Assembly (NCBI RefSeq): GCF_000010425.1
Contig: NC_008618.1
Span: 1,295,946-1,359,945 of the forward strand
DNA length: 64,000 bases
Reading direction: 5' to 3'
Origin: Bifidobacterium adolescentis ATCC 15703
Lineage (GTDB): Bacteria > Actinomycetota > Actinomycetes > Actinomycetales > Bifidobacteriaceae
The translations under genes were made by a program, and so were the position numbers. Of this stretch, positions 39,929-53,630 are shown piece by piece (position 1 is the stretch's first letter; the number at the start of each line of letters is the position of its first letter). The notes beneath the pieces are model-generated. The model did no database searches. It worked only from the letters and a program-made list of their open reading frames with translations, and was not told the origin of the DNA.

Positions 39929-41815
39929 TCAGGCGATGGCGATGACGTCTGGCTTCTCGCCGTCGTGCACGAAGTAGACGTCGTACCACGTCAGGAACGA
40001 GTACACGGTCCAGATCTTGCGGCGATCGTCGGTTTTGCCGGCATAGTTGTCATCGATCATCTTCAGCAGCGCGTCCTGGTCGAAGAACTGGCTGACGTAA
40101 TCGCGTTCGAACACGGAACGGACGTACTTGTAGAACTTCTCCTCACGCAGCCACTTCTTGATCGGCACCGGGAAGCCAAGCTTCTCACGGTCGTACCATT
40201 CCTTGGGCAGATGACGTCCCGCCGCCTGGCGGAACGCGTATTTCGTGTTCTCGTCGGTGATGAGGTACTTGGTCGGCACCTGCTCGGCCACGCCCATGAG
40301 CTCCTTGTCGAGCAGCGGCACACGCAATTCCAGCGAATGCGCCATGGTCATCTTGTCGGCCTTGAGCAGAATGTCACCCGGCATCCACTGATGCATGTCA
40401 AGGTACTGCTTCTTCTTCAGTTCGCTCAGACCCTTGCCTTCCACACGCGCATACGTCTTGTCGACGATGCTTTGCACGCTCGGCGCCTTGCGGTATTCAG
40501 GCTTGAGCAGCTGTTCGGACTGCGATTCCTCAAACACACGTGCCTGTCCGATGAAGCTTTCCTCGGCCGGCGCAAGATTGGCGTACAGATGCCATGCGCC
40601 CGGGAAGGTCTTGCCCTTGCAGAACCGGGCGATCGCCTTGCGCGCGCCGGCTGGCAGATGCGTGAGCCAGCGAGTCACCACCTTGATGGGCTTGAATTTG
40701 GTGTGCACGCCGTAGTCGATGTATCCGGCGAACAACTCGTCGGCGCCTTCGCCGCTCAGCACCACCTTCACGTCTTTGGCGGCCAATGCGGACAGGAAGT
40801 ACAGCGGCACGCAGCTCGGATTGGAGTCCGGCTCGTCGAGATGCCATTGGATGCGCGGGAACGCGGCGAACGCCTCCTCGTCGGTCAACGACTCGGCGGT
40901 GTTGTTCAGTTTGAGCAGTTCCGCCAGTTCGCCGGCCTGCTGCGATTCGTTGTACGTGCCTTTGCCAAAACCGATCGAATACGTGTGCTGCGGACGCGCC
41001 ACGGCGGCGACGTAGCTGGAGTCGACACCGCTCGACAGGAAGGAGCCGACCTCCACATCGGCGATCTGGTGCGCCTTGACGGAATCGCACACCGTCTGGT
41101 CGATCGAGTTCACCAGCTCGCCCAGCTTCTGCTTGCCTTCGCGGAAATCCTCGTCGTAATACCGGTGGATGTCCATCTTGCCATCCCGGTACGTGAAATA
41201 GTGCCCTTCCGGCAGCTTGTAGACGCCTTTGAAGAAGGTCTCACCGATCGCCGGATACTGGAAGGTCATATACGGCTTCAACGCCTCGGCGTTGAGCTCC
41301 TTGACGAAATCGGGGTGGCGCAACAGGCTCTTGATCTCCGACGCGTACATGAACGTGCCGTTCATCTTCGCATAGTAGAAGGGCTTGATGCCGAAATGGT
41401 CGCGCGCGCCGAACAGTTCCTGCTTGTTCTTGTCCCAGATCACGAAAGTGAACATGCCACGTACGCGCTGCAGCAAATCCACACCCCACTGCTCATAGCC
41501 GTGCAGCAGCACCTCGGTGTCGCTTTTGGTGGTGAAGGTGTGTCCGGCCGCGATCAATTCCTCACGCAGCGTCTGATAGTTGTAGATCTCGCCGTTGAAG
41601 GTGATGACCTTCGAACCATCCTCGTTGTAGATGGGCTGCTGGCCGCCGCCGAGGTCGATGATGCTGAGCCTTCGATGGCCGAGCGCCGCATGCTCGTCGA
41701 TGTAATGGCCTTCGCTGTCCGGCCCGCGATGCGCGATCATGTCGGTCATACGTTGGAGGACCGGGCATTTCACGTCAATGGGCATATCGTTGACGAAACC
41801 AGCAATTCCGCACAT
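39929..41815 (-). CDS. asnB: Asparagine synthetase (glutamine-hydrolysing)
   Basis: 628 residues from the ATG at 41815, which places the nucleophile Cys at position 2 (MCGIAGFVND). The class II glutaminase domain shows RGPDSEGHY, GHRRLSIIDLGGGQQP and NGEIYNYQTLREEL. The synthetase domain has the ATP pyrophosphatase loop FLSSGVDSSYVAA, and LSGEGADELFAGY. It makes asparagine from aspartate with ATP and glutamine. AAGGGA is eight bases upstream of the ATG. Stands alone between infC and divergent thiN. Confidence 0.95.
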   Translation of the reverse strand: MCGIAGFVNDMPIDVKCPVLQRMTDMIAHRGPDSEGHYIDEHAALGHRRLSIIDLGGGQQPIYNEDGSKVITFNGEIYNYQTLREELIAAGHTFTTKSDTEVLLHGYEQWGVDLLQRVRGMFTFVIWDKNKQELFGARDHFGIKPFYYAKMNGTFMYASEIKSLLRHPDFVKELNAEALKPYMTFQYPAIGETFFKGVYKLPEGHYFTYRDGKMDIHRYYDEDFREGKQKLGELVNSIDQTVCDSVKAHQIADVEVGSFLSSGVDSSYVAAVARPQHTYSIGFGKGTYNESQQAGELAELLKLNNTAESLTDEEAFAAFPRIQWHLDEPDSNPSCVPLYFLSALAAKDVKVVLSGEGADELFAGYIDYGVHTKFKPIKVVTRWLTHLPAGARKAIARFCKGKTFPGAWHLYANLAPAEESFIGQARVFEESQSEQLLKPEYRKAPSVQSIVDKTYARVEGKGLSELKKKQYLDMHQWMPGDILLKADKMTMAHSLELRVPLLDKELMGVAEQVPTKYLITDENTKYAFRQAAGRHLPKEWYDREKLGFPVPIKKWLREEKFYKYVRSVFERDYVSQFFDQDALLKMIDDNYAGKTDDRRKIWTVYSFLTWYDVYFVHDGEKPDVIAIA

Positions 41816-47191: not shown

Positions 47192-47443
47192 TTACTCGTC
47201 ACAACAGTGGTCGAGTGTCGCCTCAAGCCTGTCGATCAGGCTTTGCGGCGCGTGTTTCGGCCGCAGGTACGCGCGCATCGCTGCGATCAGCGCACGTTCG
47301 CGTTCATCGCAACAGGTCTCCGGGTCGAAGCAGTCCCCGGAGGCCACGACATGCACGCTGGCATGCGTCACCTGCGTCACCACACCGTTCGTGTTGGTGG
47401 TGGTCGAAGTAATGGAGATGTGCCGTTCCATTGGTTCGCTCAT
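47192..47443 (-). CDS. Small Cys-rich protein, candidate redox-sensing anti-sigma factor
   Basis: 83 residues; the ATG overlaps the stop of the sigma-factor gene (ATGA), the position taken by RsrA-type anti-sigma factors. It has HVVASGDCFDPETCC and a terminal HCCDE, that is five Cys in two clusters with nearby His. This could bind zinc or form disulphides, but it lacks the standard HxxxCxxC arrangement and the usual RsrA helices are not clear. The central stretch ALIAAMRAYLRPK and LIDRLEATLDHC is helical. Anti-sigma function is inferred from position and Cys content only. Confidence 0.6.
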   Translation of the reverse strand: MSEPMERHISITSTTTNTNGVVTQVTHASVHVVASGDCFDPETCCDERERALIAAMRAYLRPKHAPQSLIDRLEATLDHCCDE

Positions 47444-48045
47444 GGTCGATCCTTCCCGGCAGTGGCATAGCCACGTTCCTTGGCGTAATTGGCAAGCTCA
47501 CGTTTCAGCTGTGTGCGGGCGCGGTTGAGCCGGCTCATCACAGTGCCGATTTTCACGCCTTGTTCCTCAGCTACCTGGCTGTATGATTTGCCGTCGATCG
47601 CGGCGTCGATGAAAACCTGCCTGCGTTCCGGGGAAAGCCGGTTCAAAGCGGCCATGATCTCCTCCGGCGCGTAGGCGTCCAAGTATTCCTGTTCGGCGGA
47701 TTTGAGCTGTTCGGAGGAATGTTCGGACGCGGAATACAGGTCCCAGTCGTCGTATTCGCCGGTGGAATCGTTGGCGCGTTGCGGCCGTCGCTTGGCTTTG
47801 GCGTACTGGTTGAAATAGGCGTTGCGTTCGATGGTGGTCATCCAAGCCGCGAAATTCGTTCCTTCTTTGAAGGAGTCGAACGCCTTGAATCCACGTTCGA
47901 AGGTGTCCTGCACCAGATCCTGCGCGTCGTCGGGATTGTTGGTCAGTTTCATCGCCTGCCGGTACAGCGAGTCCACAACGGGCATGGCAAGCTTCTCAAA
48001 CCGCGCGCGCCGGCCCGCCATGGATTCCATTTCTTGTTCAGTCAC
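47440..48045 (-). CDS. sigH: ECF RNA polymerase sigma factor, SigR/SigH-like
   Basis: 201 residues from a GTG at 48045. Region 2 reads DSLYRQAMKLTNNPDDAQDLVQDTFERGFKAF with KEGTNFAAWMTTIERNAYFN. Region 4 reads LNRLSPERRQVFIDAAIDG, SYSQVAEEQGVKIGTVMSRLNRARTQLK. The extended acidic linker and the Ser/Glu-rich middle resemble SigR/SigH, which turn on thiol and heat stress genes. It is co-transcribed with the Cys-rich protein, fitting a sigma/anti-sigma pair. Divergent from murE with a palindrome between. Confidence 0.9.
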   Translation of the reverse strand: MTEQEMESMAGRRARFEKLAMPVVDSLYRQAMKLTNNPDDAQDLVQDTFERGFKAFDSFKEGTNFAAWMTTIERNAYFNQYAKAKRRPQRANDSTGEYDDWDLYSASEHSSEQLKSAEQEYLDAYAPEEIMAALNRLSPERRQVFIDAAIDGKSYSQVAEEQGVKIGTVMSRLNRARTQLKRELANYAKERGYATAGKDRP

Positions 48046-48151: not shown

Positions 48152-49705
48152 ATGGCTTTGACTCTGGAATCGGCGGCCCGACTGCTCGATAGGCACGGAC
48201 TGCTGCGCGAAATCATCCGCGGCGATGTCTGGACGCTTGATCCGCACGACATCAAGGGATTCGACGAGCCGTTCTCCGCAATCACCTACGACACCCGCAA
48301 GGTGGAGCCGGGCACGTTCCTGTGCTGCAAGGGCCGTTTCAAGGCCGAATATCTGCAGGGCATCGACGAACGCGGCCTTGCCGCCTATGTGTCGGAGAAC
48401 GACTTCTCCGACGCCACGCAAGCTCCGGGCCTTATTGTGGATGACGTGCGCAAGGCCATGGCTTTGCTATCGGCTGAATTCTATGGTCGTCCGCAGGACC
48501 AGTTGAAGGTGGTCGGCATCACCGGCACCAAAGGCAAGACCACCACCGCCTATCTCACGCAGGCGATGCTCAATGGCTGTTCCGGCGGCAAGTGCGCGCT
48601 GTTTTCCTCCGTGGACAATTGTCTTGACGGCCACACCTACGTGGAATCCGATCTGACCACGCCGGAATCCATGGATGCGTTCCGCATGATGCGCGAGGCC
48701 GTTGATAACGGCATGGAATATCTCGTCATGGAGGTCTCCTCGCAGGCCTACAAGGTGGACCGCGTGTTCGGTCTCACATTCGACGTGGCCGCGTTCCTCA
48801 ACATCAGCCCGGACCATATCAGCCCGATCGAGCATCCGACGTTCGAGGATTATCTCCACTGCAAGCGTCAGATCGTCAAGAACTGCCGTGCCCTCGTATT
48901 GGGTGCCGATTGCGCGCGCGCCGACCTCATCCGGCAGGACGCACGTCATACCAGCGTTCCCGTCACCACGTTCGCGCTTGGCGGCGATTCCATGGCAGAC
49001 GTCATGGCCGCGCCGGCGAATGACGATCACAGCCGCTTCTCCATCGTCATCGACGGCACCTCGATCGGCGAGTTGAGCCTGACATTGGACGGCGATTTCA
49101 ACTATGCGAACGCGGCGGCGGCCGTCGCGATCGCCCGTGCGGCCGGTTTCGATTTCGGTTCCGCACAGGCCAAGGACGCGTTGCGTGAGATGGAGCCGGT
49201 ACGCATCGCCGGACGTATGGAGCATTTCAAGGACACGCGGTCGAACACCATCGCCATTGTTGATTACGCGCATAACTACGCGTCTGTCACCGCGTTGCTT
49301 GACTACGTCGATCAGCGTTACGGCAGCGAAAAGCCGGAAATCACGCTCATCACCGGCTCCGCTGGAAACAAGGCATACGATCGTCGCGCCGAAATCGTCC
49401 ACGCCGCGCAGGACCGCATCGACCATCTCGTGCTTACTTTCGAAGACACCGACGACGAGCCTGTGGAACAGGTCTGCGCGGACATGAACGACAGCGTCAC
49501 CAACCCGCAGCTTGACGTGAAGACCATTCTCGACCGTGCCGAAGCCGTGGAGACCACGGTAAGCCGCGATCGCAAGGATCCCGAGCATCTGCACATCATC
49601 CTCATCATCGGCAAGGGCAACGAACGTTGGTTCAAAGACCACGGCAAGCACATCCCTTACGAGGGCGACGACCGCATCGTGGAACGTGTGTTCCGTCTCA
49701 AATAA
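48152..49705 (+). CDS. murE: UDP-MurNAc-tripeptide synthetase (MurE type, probably Lys/Orn-adding)
   Basis: 517 residues from the ATG at 48152 (GGGAG eleven bases upstream). N-terminal UDP-sugar domain (ITYDTRKVEPGTFLCCKG), P-loop GITGTKGKTTTAY (about residue 122), EVSSQAYKVDRVFGL, NISPDHISPIEHPT and the C-terminal AHNYASVTALLDYVDQR. The region that reads DNPR in meso-Dap-adding enzymes here has TFEDTDDEP, so it should add L-Lys or L-Orn. It heads an operon with a D-aspartate ligase (19 bases downstream) and a racemase, so it likely belongs to cross-bridge wall synthesis. Whether it is the only murE of the genome cannot be seen. Confidence 0.85.
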   Translation: MALTLESAARLLDRHGLLREIIRGDVWTLDPHDIKGFDEPFSAITYDTRKVEPGTFLCCKGRFKAEYLQGIDERGLAAYVSENDFSDATQAPGLIVDDVRKAMALLSAEFYGRPQDQLKVVGITGTKGKTTTAYLTQAMLNGCSGGKCALFSSVDNCLDGHTYVESDLTTPESMDAFRMMREAVDNGMEYLVMEVSSQAYKVDRVFGLTFDVAAFLNISPDHISPIEHPTFEDYLHCKRQIVKNCRALVLGADCARADLIRQDARHTSVPVTTFALGGDSMADVMAAPANDDHSRFSIVIDGTSIGELSLTLDGDFNYANAAAAVAIARAAGFDFGSAQAKDALREMEPVRIAGRMEHFKDTRSNTIAIVDYAHNYASVTALLDYVDQRYGSEKPEITLITGSAGNKAYDRRAEIVHAAQDRIDHLVLTFEDTDDEPVEQVCADMNDSVTNPQLDVKTILDRAEAVETTVSRDRKDPEHLHIILIIGKGNERWFKDHGKHIPYEGDDRIVERVFRLK

Positions 49706-49724
49706 CAACTAAGGTGAAGGCATT

Positions 49725-50969
49725 ATGACACGATTCCAACCGATTCTGCTGGGCAGCGACATCAACGTCTACGGCATGGCCAGGGCGTTCCATGAGGAGT
49801 ACGGCATCGTTTCCGAGGCGTATGCGTATTTCCAGCTGAGCCCCACGAAATTCAGCCGTATCGTCAACGTGCACATCGTCGACGATTTCAACAACTTCGT
49901 CACGTTCCGTAATTTCATGCTCAAGCTCGGCAAGCGTATGAAGGCCGAGGATCCGGAACGCGTGCTGCTGCTCATCCCCTGCGGCGACGTGTACGCCAAT
50001 CTGCTGAGCCAGTGCGGCGACGATCTTCGCGAATATTTCGTATACAACACGCTTGACGTGAACCTTTCGCGCCGGCTCGCCTACAAGTCCACGTTCTACC
50101 AGATCTGCGAGCAGTATGATCTGCCCCATCCGAAGACGCGCACCGTCACCGCCGATGAGGTGAAGGCAGGAGCCTACTGTGATTTGCCGTTCAGCTATCC
50201 GGTGGCCATGAAGCCCGCGAATTCGGTGGAATGGCTCAACATCGATTTCGAGGGCCGTCGCAAGGCCTACATCTTCAACGATCCGGCCGAATTGGAGACC
50301 ATCATCAAGCGTGCGTACGATGCCGGATACACGTCCGAAATGGTGATTCAGGACTTCATCCCCGGCGACGATTCCCGTATGCGTGTGCTGAACGCCTATG
50401 TGGACCAGCATCATCGCGTGCGTATGATGTTCCTCGGCCACCCGCTGCTGGAGGATCCCTCCCCTGTCGCCGCGGGCAACTATGCGGCCATTCTGCCCGA
50501 CTACAACGAGGGTGTGTTCCGTCGTATCAAGGCTTTCCTCGAGGACATCAAGTACGAGGGCGTGGCCAATTTCGACATGAAGTACGACGAACGCGACGGC
50601 GAGTACAAGCTGTTCGAAATCAACCTTCGCCAGGGACGTTCCAGCTATTTCGTCACGCTGAACGGCTTCAATCTGGCGAAGTATTTCGTCGACGACCTCG
50701 TCGAGGACACGCCGTTCGACGGCAACACCCTGTTCGGCCGCGGTTCGAAGCTGTGGCTTGAGATTCCGAAGTCGATTTTCCTTGATTACGTCGCAGAAGG
50801 CGCTGACAAGGAAACCGGCAAGCGCATGCTCAAGTCGGGCGATTGGGGTACCACCTTGGAGTATTCCAAGGATATGAATCCGCTGCGTTGGCTGATGATT
50901 CGGCACATGTTCTCGATTTACAAGAAGAGCTATGCCAAGTACTTCACCAAGAAGGGCGAGCTTAAGTGA
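49725..50969 (+). CDS. ATP-grasp D-aspartate ligase (Asl/Aslfm-like), cell-wall cross-bridge
   Basis: 414 residues. Strong resemblance to the Enterococcus faecium enzyme Aslfm that joins D-Asp to the Lys of UDP-MurNAc-pentapeptide: ILLGSDINVYGMARAFHEEY, SPTKFSRIVNV, FYQICEQYDLPHPKTR, MKPANSVEWLNIDFEGRRKA, GYTSEMVIQDFIPGDDSRMRVLNAY, PLLEDPSPVAAGNYAAILP and FEINLRQGRSSYFVTLNG with the Mg/ATP residues. Cytoplasmic. It sits between murE and an aspartate racemase, which supplies D-Asp, and overlaps the racemase by four bases. This arrangement makes D-Asp bridge formation very likely. Confidence 0.88.
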   Translation: MTRFQPILLGSDINVYGMARAFHEEYGIVSEAYAYFQLSPTKFSRIVNVHIVDDFNNFVTFRNFMLKLGKRMKAEDPERVLLLIPCGDVYANLLSQCGDDLREYFVYNTLDVNLSRRLAYKSTFYQICEQYDLPHPKTRTVTADEVKAGAYCDLPFSYPVAMKPANSVEWLNIDFEGRRKAYIFNDPAELETIIKRAYDAGYTSEMVIQDFIPGDDSRMRVLNAYVDQHHRVRMMFLGHPLLEDPSPVAAGNYAAILPDYNEGVFRRIKAFLEDIKYEGVANFDMKYDERDGEYKLFEINLRQGRSSYFVTLNGFNLAKYFVDDLVEDTPFDGNTLFGRGSKLWLEIPKSIFLDYVAEGADKETGKRMLKSGDWGTTLEYSKDMNPLRWLMIRHMFSIYKKSYAKYFTKKGELK

Positions 50970-51691
50970 AACGACCGTTTTTCGCCGTACTGGGCGGCAT
51001 GGGCACGCTGGCCACCGAAAGCTACATCCGCTTGGTCAACCGCGCCACGCATGCCCATTGCGATCAGGATTATCTGGACTACATCGTCTTCAACGATTCC
51101 TCCGTGCCGGACCGCACCGCGTACATTCTCGGCGAATCCGACGAGAATCCCTTCCCCGTACTCGCCGACGATATCGAGAAGGCAACGGCGATGGGCGCGA
51201 GTTTCATTGTGCTCACCTGCAATACCGCGCACTATTTCTATGACGATTTCCAGGCGTTGACGACGGTGCCGATTCTGCATATGCCACGCGGCGCGGTGGC
51301 ACGCATGGCTCAGCGTTATCCGAAGGATCGTTTTCCGCGGGTCGGTTTCCTCGGCACCGTGGGTTCGCGCAAATCCGGCGTGTACAAGCGTGCCGTCGAA
51401 GAGGCCGGGTACACGTTCGTCGAACCGACCGACGAGTTGCAGGCCCGTATCACTTCGTTGATTTATGACGATGTGAAAGGTAGTGGCGAGCTCAATCTGG
51501 AACGCTACGAATCGGTGTTGCGCGATATGCTCGATCCGGCAGGCCCCTGCGCGTGCGACACGCTGATATTGGGCTGCACCGAGCTGAGCGTGCTCAACGA
51601 GGCGTTTCCGCTGCCCCAGCTGCCGGTCATCGACGCGCAGGCCGTGCTGGTGGAAGATACCGTGGCGCGGGCCGAAGCGTTGCGCGCGTAG
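50966..51691 (+). CDS. racD: Aspartate/glutamate racemase
   Basis: 241 residues; the ATG overlaps the ligase stop. The two catalytic Cys are in VLTCNTAHYFY and LILGCTELSVL. It starts KRPFFAVLGGMGTLATESYIRLV, the aspartate-racemase pattern, and has GFLGTVGSRKSGVYKRA. It makes D-Asp from L-Asp for the cross-bridge ligase. Glutamate racemase (MurI) is the alternative, but the operon context and the LGGMGTLATESY start favour aspartate. The operon ends at the following terminator. Confidence 0.88.
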   Translation: MKRPFFAVLGGMGTLATESYIRLVNRATHAHCDQDYLDYIVFNDSSVPDRTAYILGESDENPFPVLADDIEKATAMGASFIVLTCNTAHYFYDDFQALTTVPILHMPRGAVARMAQRYPKDRFPRVGFLGTVGSRKSGVYKRAVEEAGYTFVEPTDELQARITSLIYDDVKGSGELNLERYESVLRDMLDPAGPCACDTLILGCTELSVLNEAFPLPQLPVIDAQAVLVEDTVARAEALRA

Positions 51692-51744
51692 CTATTATTT
51701 GTCACGCCTATCTTCGACTGCTTAGGCGTCGGACGATAAAACAA

Positions 51745-51793
51745 GATTGTGGGTGGCTTCCCATTGCCTGGGGAGCCACCCATAATCTGTTTT
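51745..51793. terminator. Bidirectional terminator, cross-bridge operon and folC
   Basis: 19-base stem (51745-51763 with 51771-51789, two G-U pairs), 7-base loop, followed by TTTT on the plus strand. Confidence 0.9.
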
Positions 51794-51849: not shown

Positions 51850-53484
51850 TCACTTCGTTTCGTTTTCCGAAGCCGTTTCCGCATCCGCCGGTTCGTTGGC
51901 ATCCGCCGCCTCATCCATTTCATCCGCATCGGCGTCTGCTAAAACGGAATCGTCCGGACCGACGCTGCCGAAATCGTTGATGTTGAAATCAGGGTTGGCG
52001 TCGGATTCGAAATCCACGTCAGCCTCGTCCTGCTTTTTGCGCGGTTCCGGATCGACGGCTTCCTGGAACACACGTTCGGCCTTTGGCTTCTTCAGGTCGG
52101 GGTTGATCTTCTCCTCCAGCATGAGTCGCGCATCACCGGCGGTTGTGAAGCTGCCACAGACGAGCACGCCATGACCGTAGCCGACGCCCAGTTCGTCATC
52201 GGCATCAACCATGTTGACGGCTTCCTGGATGGCGTCCGGCAATTCGGGAATGCAGGTGACGCGTTCCGGCCCGAAAACACGGTCCGCGATCTTCTTCAGA
52301 TCCTCAGCCGGCATCACTCGGTCACGCCACGAGTTCTCGGTGACGATCACATGGCTCAGCAACGGTTCGAGCACGCCCAGATACTCCTCGACCTGCTTGT
52401 CCCCCATCATGGCGACCACGCCGACGAGCTGCTGGAAATCATAGTTCTCTTCAATGGCGGCACGCAGCGATTCGGCCGCGTTCACGTTGTGCCCGCCATC
52501 AAGGATGATGGTAGGCGAGGTACGAATTTGTTCGATACGTCCCGGAATGCGTACGCTGCTCAACGCTTCGGCCACCAAATCGCCGTCCAACGCGCCGTTG
52601 ACGGGAATCACCACTTCCGCCGCGCACAGTGCGGCGAGCGCGTTGTGTGCCTGATGCTCGCCGAATTTGGCGATCGGCACTTCCGTGTAGGTGCCGTTCG
52701 GGGTGCGCAGGGTGGCCACCTGGCCGCCGACGGCCGGCACTCGGGTAACGACTTCCGATTCGACGCCGTCGCGCACCAAGCTGGCGTGGTTCTCCTTGGC
52801 CGCGGCCTCGATAATCGGCATGACCTCGTCCTCGTGTGGCTGGCGGCCGATGATGACGGTGCAGTTCGGCTTGATGATGCCGACCTTTTCCGTGGCGATT
52901 TCCTCCACGGTGTCGCCGAGCCATGCCATGTGGTCCATGTCGACCGGGCCGATGATGGCCGCGTCCGCGTCGAGCACGTTGGTGGCGTCCCATCGGCCGC
53001 CCATGCCGACTTCCACGATGGCGACGTCGACCGGCGCGTCGGCGAATTTCCAGATGGCCATGGCGGTGAGCACTTCGAAGAAGCTCATCTTCGGCTTGCC
53101 CAGCTCGTCCATTTTCATGTCCACGATGGCGACAAGGTCCTTGACCTGGTCCCAGGTGTCGACGAAATCGTCGTCGGACAGCTGCTGGCCGTCGATGGCG
53201 ATGCGCTCGTTGACGTGTTCCAGATGGGGCGAGGTGTATAGGCCCGTACGCATGCCGTAGGCGCGGCAGATGGCTTCGGCCATGCGTGCCGTGGAGCCTT
53301 TGCCGTTGGTGCCGGTGATGTGGATGACGCGGAACGACTGCTCCGGATGGCCCATGATGTCGAGGATCATCTTCATGCGTTGCAGGTCGAGATTGGTGGT
53401 GTTGCGTTCCGATGGACGGCTCATGATGTCGCGTTCGACGTCGATCATGCTTTCGTTGTTGCGATTGGGATGTTCGAATGACAT
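51850..53484 (-). CDS. folC: Folylpolyglutamate synthase / dihydrofolate synthase with acidic tail
   Basis: 544 residues from the ATG at 53484. P-loop region VIHITGTNGKGSTARMAEAI, YTSPHLEHVNERI, EVGMGGRWDATNVLD, GPVDMDHMAWLGDTVEEIATEKVGI and ILDGGHNVNAAESLR. It adds glutamate to folates (and pteroate). The catalytic part fits the usual 420-450 residues. The remaining about 90 residues (from near 455) are a very acidic, Asp/Ala/Glu-rich tail not found in E. coli FolC. Divergent from pepP. Confidence 0.93.
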   Translation of the reverse strand: MSFEHPNRNNESMIDVERDIMSRPSERNTTNLDLQRMKMILDIMGHPEQSFRVIHITGTNGKGSTARMAEAICRAYGMRTGLYTSPHLEHVNERIAIDGQQLSDDDFVDTWDQVKDLVAIVDMKMDELGKPKMSFFEVLTAMAIWKFADAPVDVAIVEVGMGGRWDATNVLDADAAIIGPVDMDHMAWLGDTVEEIATEKVGIIKPNCTVIIGRQPHEDEVMPIIEAAAKENHASLVRDGVESEVVTRVPAVGGQVATLRTPNGTYTEVPIAKFGEHQAHNALAALCAAEVVIPVNGALDGDLVAEALSSVRIPGRIEQIRTSPTIILDGGHNVNAAESLRAAIEENYDFQQLVGVVAMMGDKQVEEYLGVLEPLLSHVIVTENSWRDRVMPAEDLKKIADRVFGPERVTCIPELPDAIQEAVNMVDADDELGVGYGHGVLVCGSFTTAGDARLMLEEKINPDLKKPKAERVFQEAVDPEPRKKQDEADVDFESDANPDFNINDFGSVGPDDSVLADADADEMDEAADANEPADAETASENETK

Positions 53485-53630
53485 ATTTCCCGTTTTCCTC
53501 CCGTACCTTGCGGACAGCACACTAAACTTTTCCCATTCTAGATGTCCGCATGAACGTTGCGCGCCGGGAAAAGTTATAGGATGGGTTGCGGTAATTTCCG
53601 TACGTTACGAATGCATGTTCAGGAGATGTG

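Follow-up and report, generated by a model that had tools for sequence, protein, structure and literature searches.

The murE–ligase–racemase cluster of Bifidobacterium adolescentis ATCC 15703 very probably builds the D-Asp link that ties cell-wall strands together, judging from its sequence. We propose with high confidence that murE, aslA and racD would be co-transcribed and make an A4-alpha type cross-bridge, that the bridge may be amidated by an AsnH-like enzyme and that the module stands in place of FemX/FemAB. The D-Asp reading, already put forward in an initial annotation, holds up in substance and is of an ordinary kind. More interesting than the cluster itself are the exchangeable slot that holds its bridge genes and a candidate D-Glu ligase. 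The window, by which we mean the whole 64,000-nucleotide stretch analyzed, lies in a genome of one contig (2,089,645 bases) and contains the following features.

39929-41815, minus strand: asnH-like glutamine-hydrolyzing asparagine synthase homologue (GATase_7 and Asn_synthase domains, starting with MCGIAGF)
47440-48045, minus strand: ECF-type sigma factor gene, divergent, the conserved left flank (beside murE at 79 of 86 mapped loci)
48152-49705, plus strand: murE, UDP-MurNAc-tripeptide synthetase, predicted to add L-Lys/L-Orn (PF08245, PF02875)
49725-50969, plus strand: AslA/Aslfm-like ATP-grasp carboxylate-amine ligase, predicted D-aspartate ligase, 414 amino acids (profile, fold and homology)
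50966-51691, plus strand: aspartate racemase, RacD-like, 241 amino acids (PF01177, E 4e-42)
51744-51788, plus strand: intrinsic-terminator-like hairpin at the cluster end, between the cluster and the convergent folC (20-pair stem followed by GTTTT)
51850-53520, minus strand: folC, the conserved right flank (smc intervenes in many congeners)

The three plus-strand open reading frames of the cluster are tightly spaced. The murE stop codon TAA (49703-49705) and the ligase ATG at 49725 are separated by 19 bases that include a ribosome-binding-like AAGGTG, and the racemase GTG at 50966 overlaps the end of the ligase stop codon TGA at 50969 by 4 bases (GTGA). This spacing agrees base for base with the initial annotation, and the one terminator that it listed corresponds to the single strong 20-pair hairpin with a T-rich tail. 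Taken together, terminator-like matches do not exceed chance (3 found versus 4.8 expected from shuffles); the hairpin at the cluster end is much longer than the other matches. No prominent internal promoter was detected (2 found versus 2.3 expected). All 35 congeners whose ligase shares at least 65% identity retain the murE–ligase–racemase order together with the ligase–racemase overlap or a very short gap in its place, and the same arrangement occurs in lactic acid bacteria, where the proteins are 37-57% identical. Because order and spacing recur in this manner, the arrangement is not a product of chance. To the left, the sigma factor gene and a small downstream reading frame, possibly encoding an anti-sigma factor, occupy 47192-48045 on the minus strand, divergent from murE. 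Given that this neighborhood is conserved genus-wide, murE may share its promoter region with a stress regulon.

Which diamino acid does MurE add? The protein exceeds the cut-offs of TIGR01085 (260.9 versus 257.3 bits) and NF001129 (935 versus 762 bits). Dap-type enzymes contain DNPR, the Dap-recognition motif of MurE, at the position where residues 431-434 of this protein read EDTD. The model score and the missing motif support the prediction of an L-Lys/L-Orn type enzyme. It is hardly credible that MurE instead adds meso-diaminopimelate and that the ligase uses another substrate: the best NCBIfam equivalog is named a 2,6-diaminopimelate ligase by automatic annotation, but EDTD or EDTN replaces DNPR in all of the bifidobacterial MurE proteins aligned, and the genus Bifidobacterium has a Lys/Orn type wall by established chemistry. 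L-Ornithine is described in B. longum (PMC8660834). The predicted L-Lys/L-Orn-adding MurE is the only MurE in the genome, where a search for a second copy had been suggested; the remaining Mur-ligase matches in a scan of the genome are MurC, MurD, MurF, MurT and FolC. Tandem paralogues, murE1 and murE2, precede the ligase at loci L165-L170 and in most of the closest ligase-bearing congeners, and the window's genome has one copy. A lactic-acid-bacterial origin of murE2, the second MurE of many ligase genomes, was considered and rejected, since murE2 forms a clade inside the bifidobacteria.

The ligase sequence alone has almost no family match, and a ligase profile matches the ATP-grasp domain in carbamoyl-phosphate synthase and in VanA. 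An AlphaFold (AF2) model of the ligase (pLDDT 92.3, pTM 0.89) adopts an ATP-grasp fold in which the nucleotide and Mg residues are conserved. Its nearest structures are 2pn1 (Z 26.6), PurK and PylC (Z 22.8), and no solved D-Asp ligase structure is among the matches listed. Residues K121, K163, K180, D284, E298, N300 and R302 are invariant, with the three lysines and the E298-x-N300-x-R302 motif retained in 16 relatives. The ligase is 48-57% identical over its full length to lactic-acid-bacterial ligases, several of which are encoded in asnH-murE-ligase-racemase operons. These homologues back the likeness to Aslfm noticed in the initial annotation, and together with the fold and the genetic linkage to the racemase they support the prediction of a D-aspartate ligase of the AslA/Aslfm type. 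The ligase is strongly conserved at the protein level. A recent transfer of the ligase between genomes G000 and G005, considered because of 96% protein identity versus 78% for FolC, was rejected because identity at fourfold sites equals that of the flanks (0.59 versus 0.58). Plasmid and phage collections yielded only remote or unannotated relatives.

The racemase scores 216.9 bits with TIGR00035 (cut-off, 93.1) and falls below the cut-off for cysteate racemase. It matches the aspartate racemase 1jfl with 121 bits, and the catalytic cysteines align as Cys85 and Cys204. The protein thus combines the two catalytic cysteines and the subfamily score of a PLP-independent aspartate racemase. MurI is encoded by a separate gene (G000:1445701). 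Does the ligase use the product of this racemase? Homology leaves the substrate unfixed, and this slot holds related ligases lacking a racemase partner in B. thermophilum, among others, so the ligase could in principle add another acidic residue (D-Glu or L-Asp) or D-Asn directly while the racemase serves other needs. This alternative is very improbable, given that a racemase adjoins every ligase of at least 53% identity (37 of 37 genomes), that racemases occur in 44 of 57 ligase genomes and in none of the 55 others and that the racemase passes the aspartate model but not the cysteate one.

In the proposed D-Asp pathway, MurE would add L-Lys or L-Orn to UDP-MurNAc-L-Ala-D-Glu, and the racemase would convert L-Asp to D-Asp using a PLP-independent two-cysteine mechanism. 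The ATP-grasp ligase would activate D-Asp at its beta-carboxylate, forming an acyl phosphate, and join the activated residue to the side-chain amine of Lys/Orn in the UDP-MurNAc-peptide. Each of the three steps anticipated from the gene set (addition of the diamino acid, production of D-Asp and its attachment) finds support at the sequence level in the MurE lacking DNPR, the racemase cysteines and the ligase homology, respectively.

The initial annotation missed a likely amidase gene in the same window. The asnH-like gene is located 6 kb upstream of murE on the opposite strand and outside the cluster, and its product scores 561 bits with TIGR01536 (cut-off, 267) and contains class II GATase and asparagine synthase domains. 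Strong AsnH homologues are found in 33 of 112 congeners, all of which carry the ligase (33 of 57 ligase genomes versus 0 of 55 others). In Lactococcus lactis, AsnH amidates the D-Asp bridge after D-Asp addition (PMC4155827). By analogy with this role, the AsnH-like amidotransferase may turn D-Asp into D-Asn, and the bridge may partly consist of D-Asn. Inside the slots of G003 and B. pongonis, ligase and racemase are separated by an AsnH-like gene, and FemX-like genes are also present (L176:2558-4450 and L179:2544-4418).

Fem-type transferases, which the initial annotation had named as the contrary case, were sought in the whole genome. Neither FemAB nor FemX-like proteins were found in the window's genome using PF02388 and a direct search with the genus's own FemX-like protein; the latter search was added because PF02388 alone misses or barely scores FemX-like proteins. 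Among 112 genomes of the genus, 57 contain the ligase, 48 contain a strong FemAB and none contains both (Fisher test, 1.6e-24, which ignores relatedness). Phylogenetically independent pairs on a flank-gene tree favor the exclusion by about 8 to 0 (median sign-test p, 0.008). None of the 35 genomes whose ligase reaches 65% identity contains FemX or FemAB. The only genome of the 112 without any bridge gene is G078, which is 78% complete. Closely related Gardnerella-type genomes are split between ligase plus racemase (G035, G077, G099, G107 and G108) and FemAB (G104, G105, G106, G109 and G110), so that members of this group are predicted to differ in wall chemistry.

The exclusion has a counterpart in the locus itself. 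Nearly all of the 86 mapped loci share one frame, in which a divergent sigma gene and one or two copies of murE are followed by variable genes and by a convergent smc and/or folC. The variable position contains ligase plus racemase; FemX; FemX plus ligase plus racemase, in some cases with AsnH; FemX plus a divergent ligase; a divergent ligase alone; or nothing, the empty state being that of Gardnerella-like genomes, which have FemAB elsewhere. On the flank-gene tree of 76 genomes, the slot class changes at least 20 times, although some branches are weak and the flanks might travel with the slot. The region between murE and smc/folC is a fixed slot whose wall-bridge genes have repeatedly been exchanged across bifidobacteria. 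In the B. adolescentis genome, the ligase–racemase module would replace the aminoacyl-tRNA-dependent FemX/FemAB system that close relatives have in the same slot behind murE.

Is murE part of a dedicated D-Asp operon, as claimed in the initial annotation? The ligase–racemase part of this claim is supported, but its extension to murE is too strong. The nearest relatives of the window's murE, orthologues with 80-87% identity, reside in Fem-type genomes; murE has its own history and encodes the sole MurE of its genome. The sister genome G069 shares 87-96% identity with the window's genome in murE and in each flank, and its slot carries FemX. A closely related murE in front of FemX means that murE is not dedicated to D-Asp and that the downstream genes decide the bridge. 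The separate history of murE also agrees with the view that the genes are mere neighbors, with a housekeeping murE and a ligase–racemase pair that are transcribed and used separately. We regard this view as unlikely because the genes keep their order in each of the 35 congeners and in several lactic-acid-bacterial genera with gaps of a few bases, and the slot behind murE in the other mapped congeners contains bridge genes or is empty.

Can the slot be read for bridge chemistry? We consider it somewhat probable that the slot is a genus-wide exchange site whose contents form a readable code, including LigB as a D-Glu cross-bridge ligase. In this code, ligase plus racemase would specify X-D-Asp, and FemX plus ligase plus racemase would specify X-Ser-D-Asp. 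A divergent ligase without a racemase would specify X-D-Glu, and FemX plus a divergent ligase would specify X-Ser-D-Glu; FemX, with FemAB elsewhere, would specify bridges of L-amino acids. LigB is the divergent ATP-grasp ligase of B. thermophilum (L085:9508-10845), a 29% identical relative of the ligase that occupies the same slot without a racemase. A D-Glu bridge needs no extra racemase because MurI supplies D-Glu, and this racemase-less ligase is thus a candidate D-Glu ligase. We know of no identified D-Glu cross-bridge ligase. A divergent ATP-grasp ligase without a racemase, likewise a candidate for D-Glu bridge formation, is also present at the slot in L225, L226, L227 and L231.

Named species permit a comparison with wall types. 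B. thermophilum, B. merycicum, B. pongonis, B. cuniculi and a Gardnerella strain were matched to genomes by an identical 400-base stretch, and a MurE contig search returned about a dozen named Bifidobacteriaceae among the matches listed. B. merycicum and B. indicum contain ligase and racemase, and B. cuniculi contains FemX and no ligase. These contents and the LigB of B. thermophilum fit the wall types that we take these four species to have, namely Lys-D-Asp for B. merycicum and B. indicum, Lys-Ala3 for B. cuniculi and a D-Glu type for B. thermophilum. The murein of B. adolescentis ATCC 15703 is recorded as L-Lys(L-Orn)-D-Asp; a partial literature search returned neither a wall analysis of the B. 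adolescentis strain nor species-by-species bifidobacterial wall types. Murein type was a classical character for separating bifidobacteria, and bridge chemistry influences how hydrolases, phage endolysins and host receptors recognize the wall. If the code is true, one small exchangeable locus would make the wall type predictable from any genome of the genus, in a manner testable per species, and a candidate D-Glu bridge ligase is nominated.

The cluster resembles known D-Asp bridge systems. In Lactococcus lactis and lactobacilli, an aslA-racD pair, plus asnH, is reported to encode D-Asp cross-bridge synthesis (Veiga 2006), and a Racfm-Aslfm pair is said to act in Enterococcus faecium (Bellais 2006). 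As in these systems, the B. adolescentis genome encodes a predicted ATP-grasp D-Asp ligase beside an aspartate racemase and an AsnH-type amidotransferase. Ligases with 48-57% identity are found in Vagococcus, Enterococcus sp. 669A, Pediococcus damnosus, Ligilactobacillus murinus and others. Six loci show the asnH-murE-ligase-racemase order, with representatives in Vagococcus, Pediococcus, Secundilactobacillus and Apilactobacillus; there, the murE and ligase genes overlap or are separated by a few bases. Several lactic acid bacteria thus share the placement of murE directly upstream of the ligase; they differ in that their asnH is directly upstream of murE rather than 6 kb away on the other strand, and the present cluster has an actinobacterial host and a murE of bifidobacterial lineage. 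These lactic-acid-bacterial loci represent the aslA/racD/asnH pathway published for L. lactis (PMC4155827) with murE added, and the gene set of the cluster is therefore already known. Aminoacyl-tRNA-dependent bridge synthesis by FemABX, BppA or MurMN performs the same job, and FemX occupies the same slot in related bifidobacteria, but these enzymes have another fold and mechanism, and none is found in the window's genome. PylC is an ATP-grasp ligase that joins a D-ornithine-type carboxylate to the epsilon-amine of lysine. The B. adolescentis ligase resembles PylC in predicted fold and would likewise join a D-amino acid carboxylate to a lysine side-chain amine, whereas the two proteins are 12% identical, and PylC belongs to the pyrrolysine pathway and uses free lysine as the acceptor.
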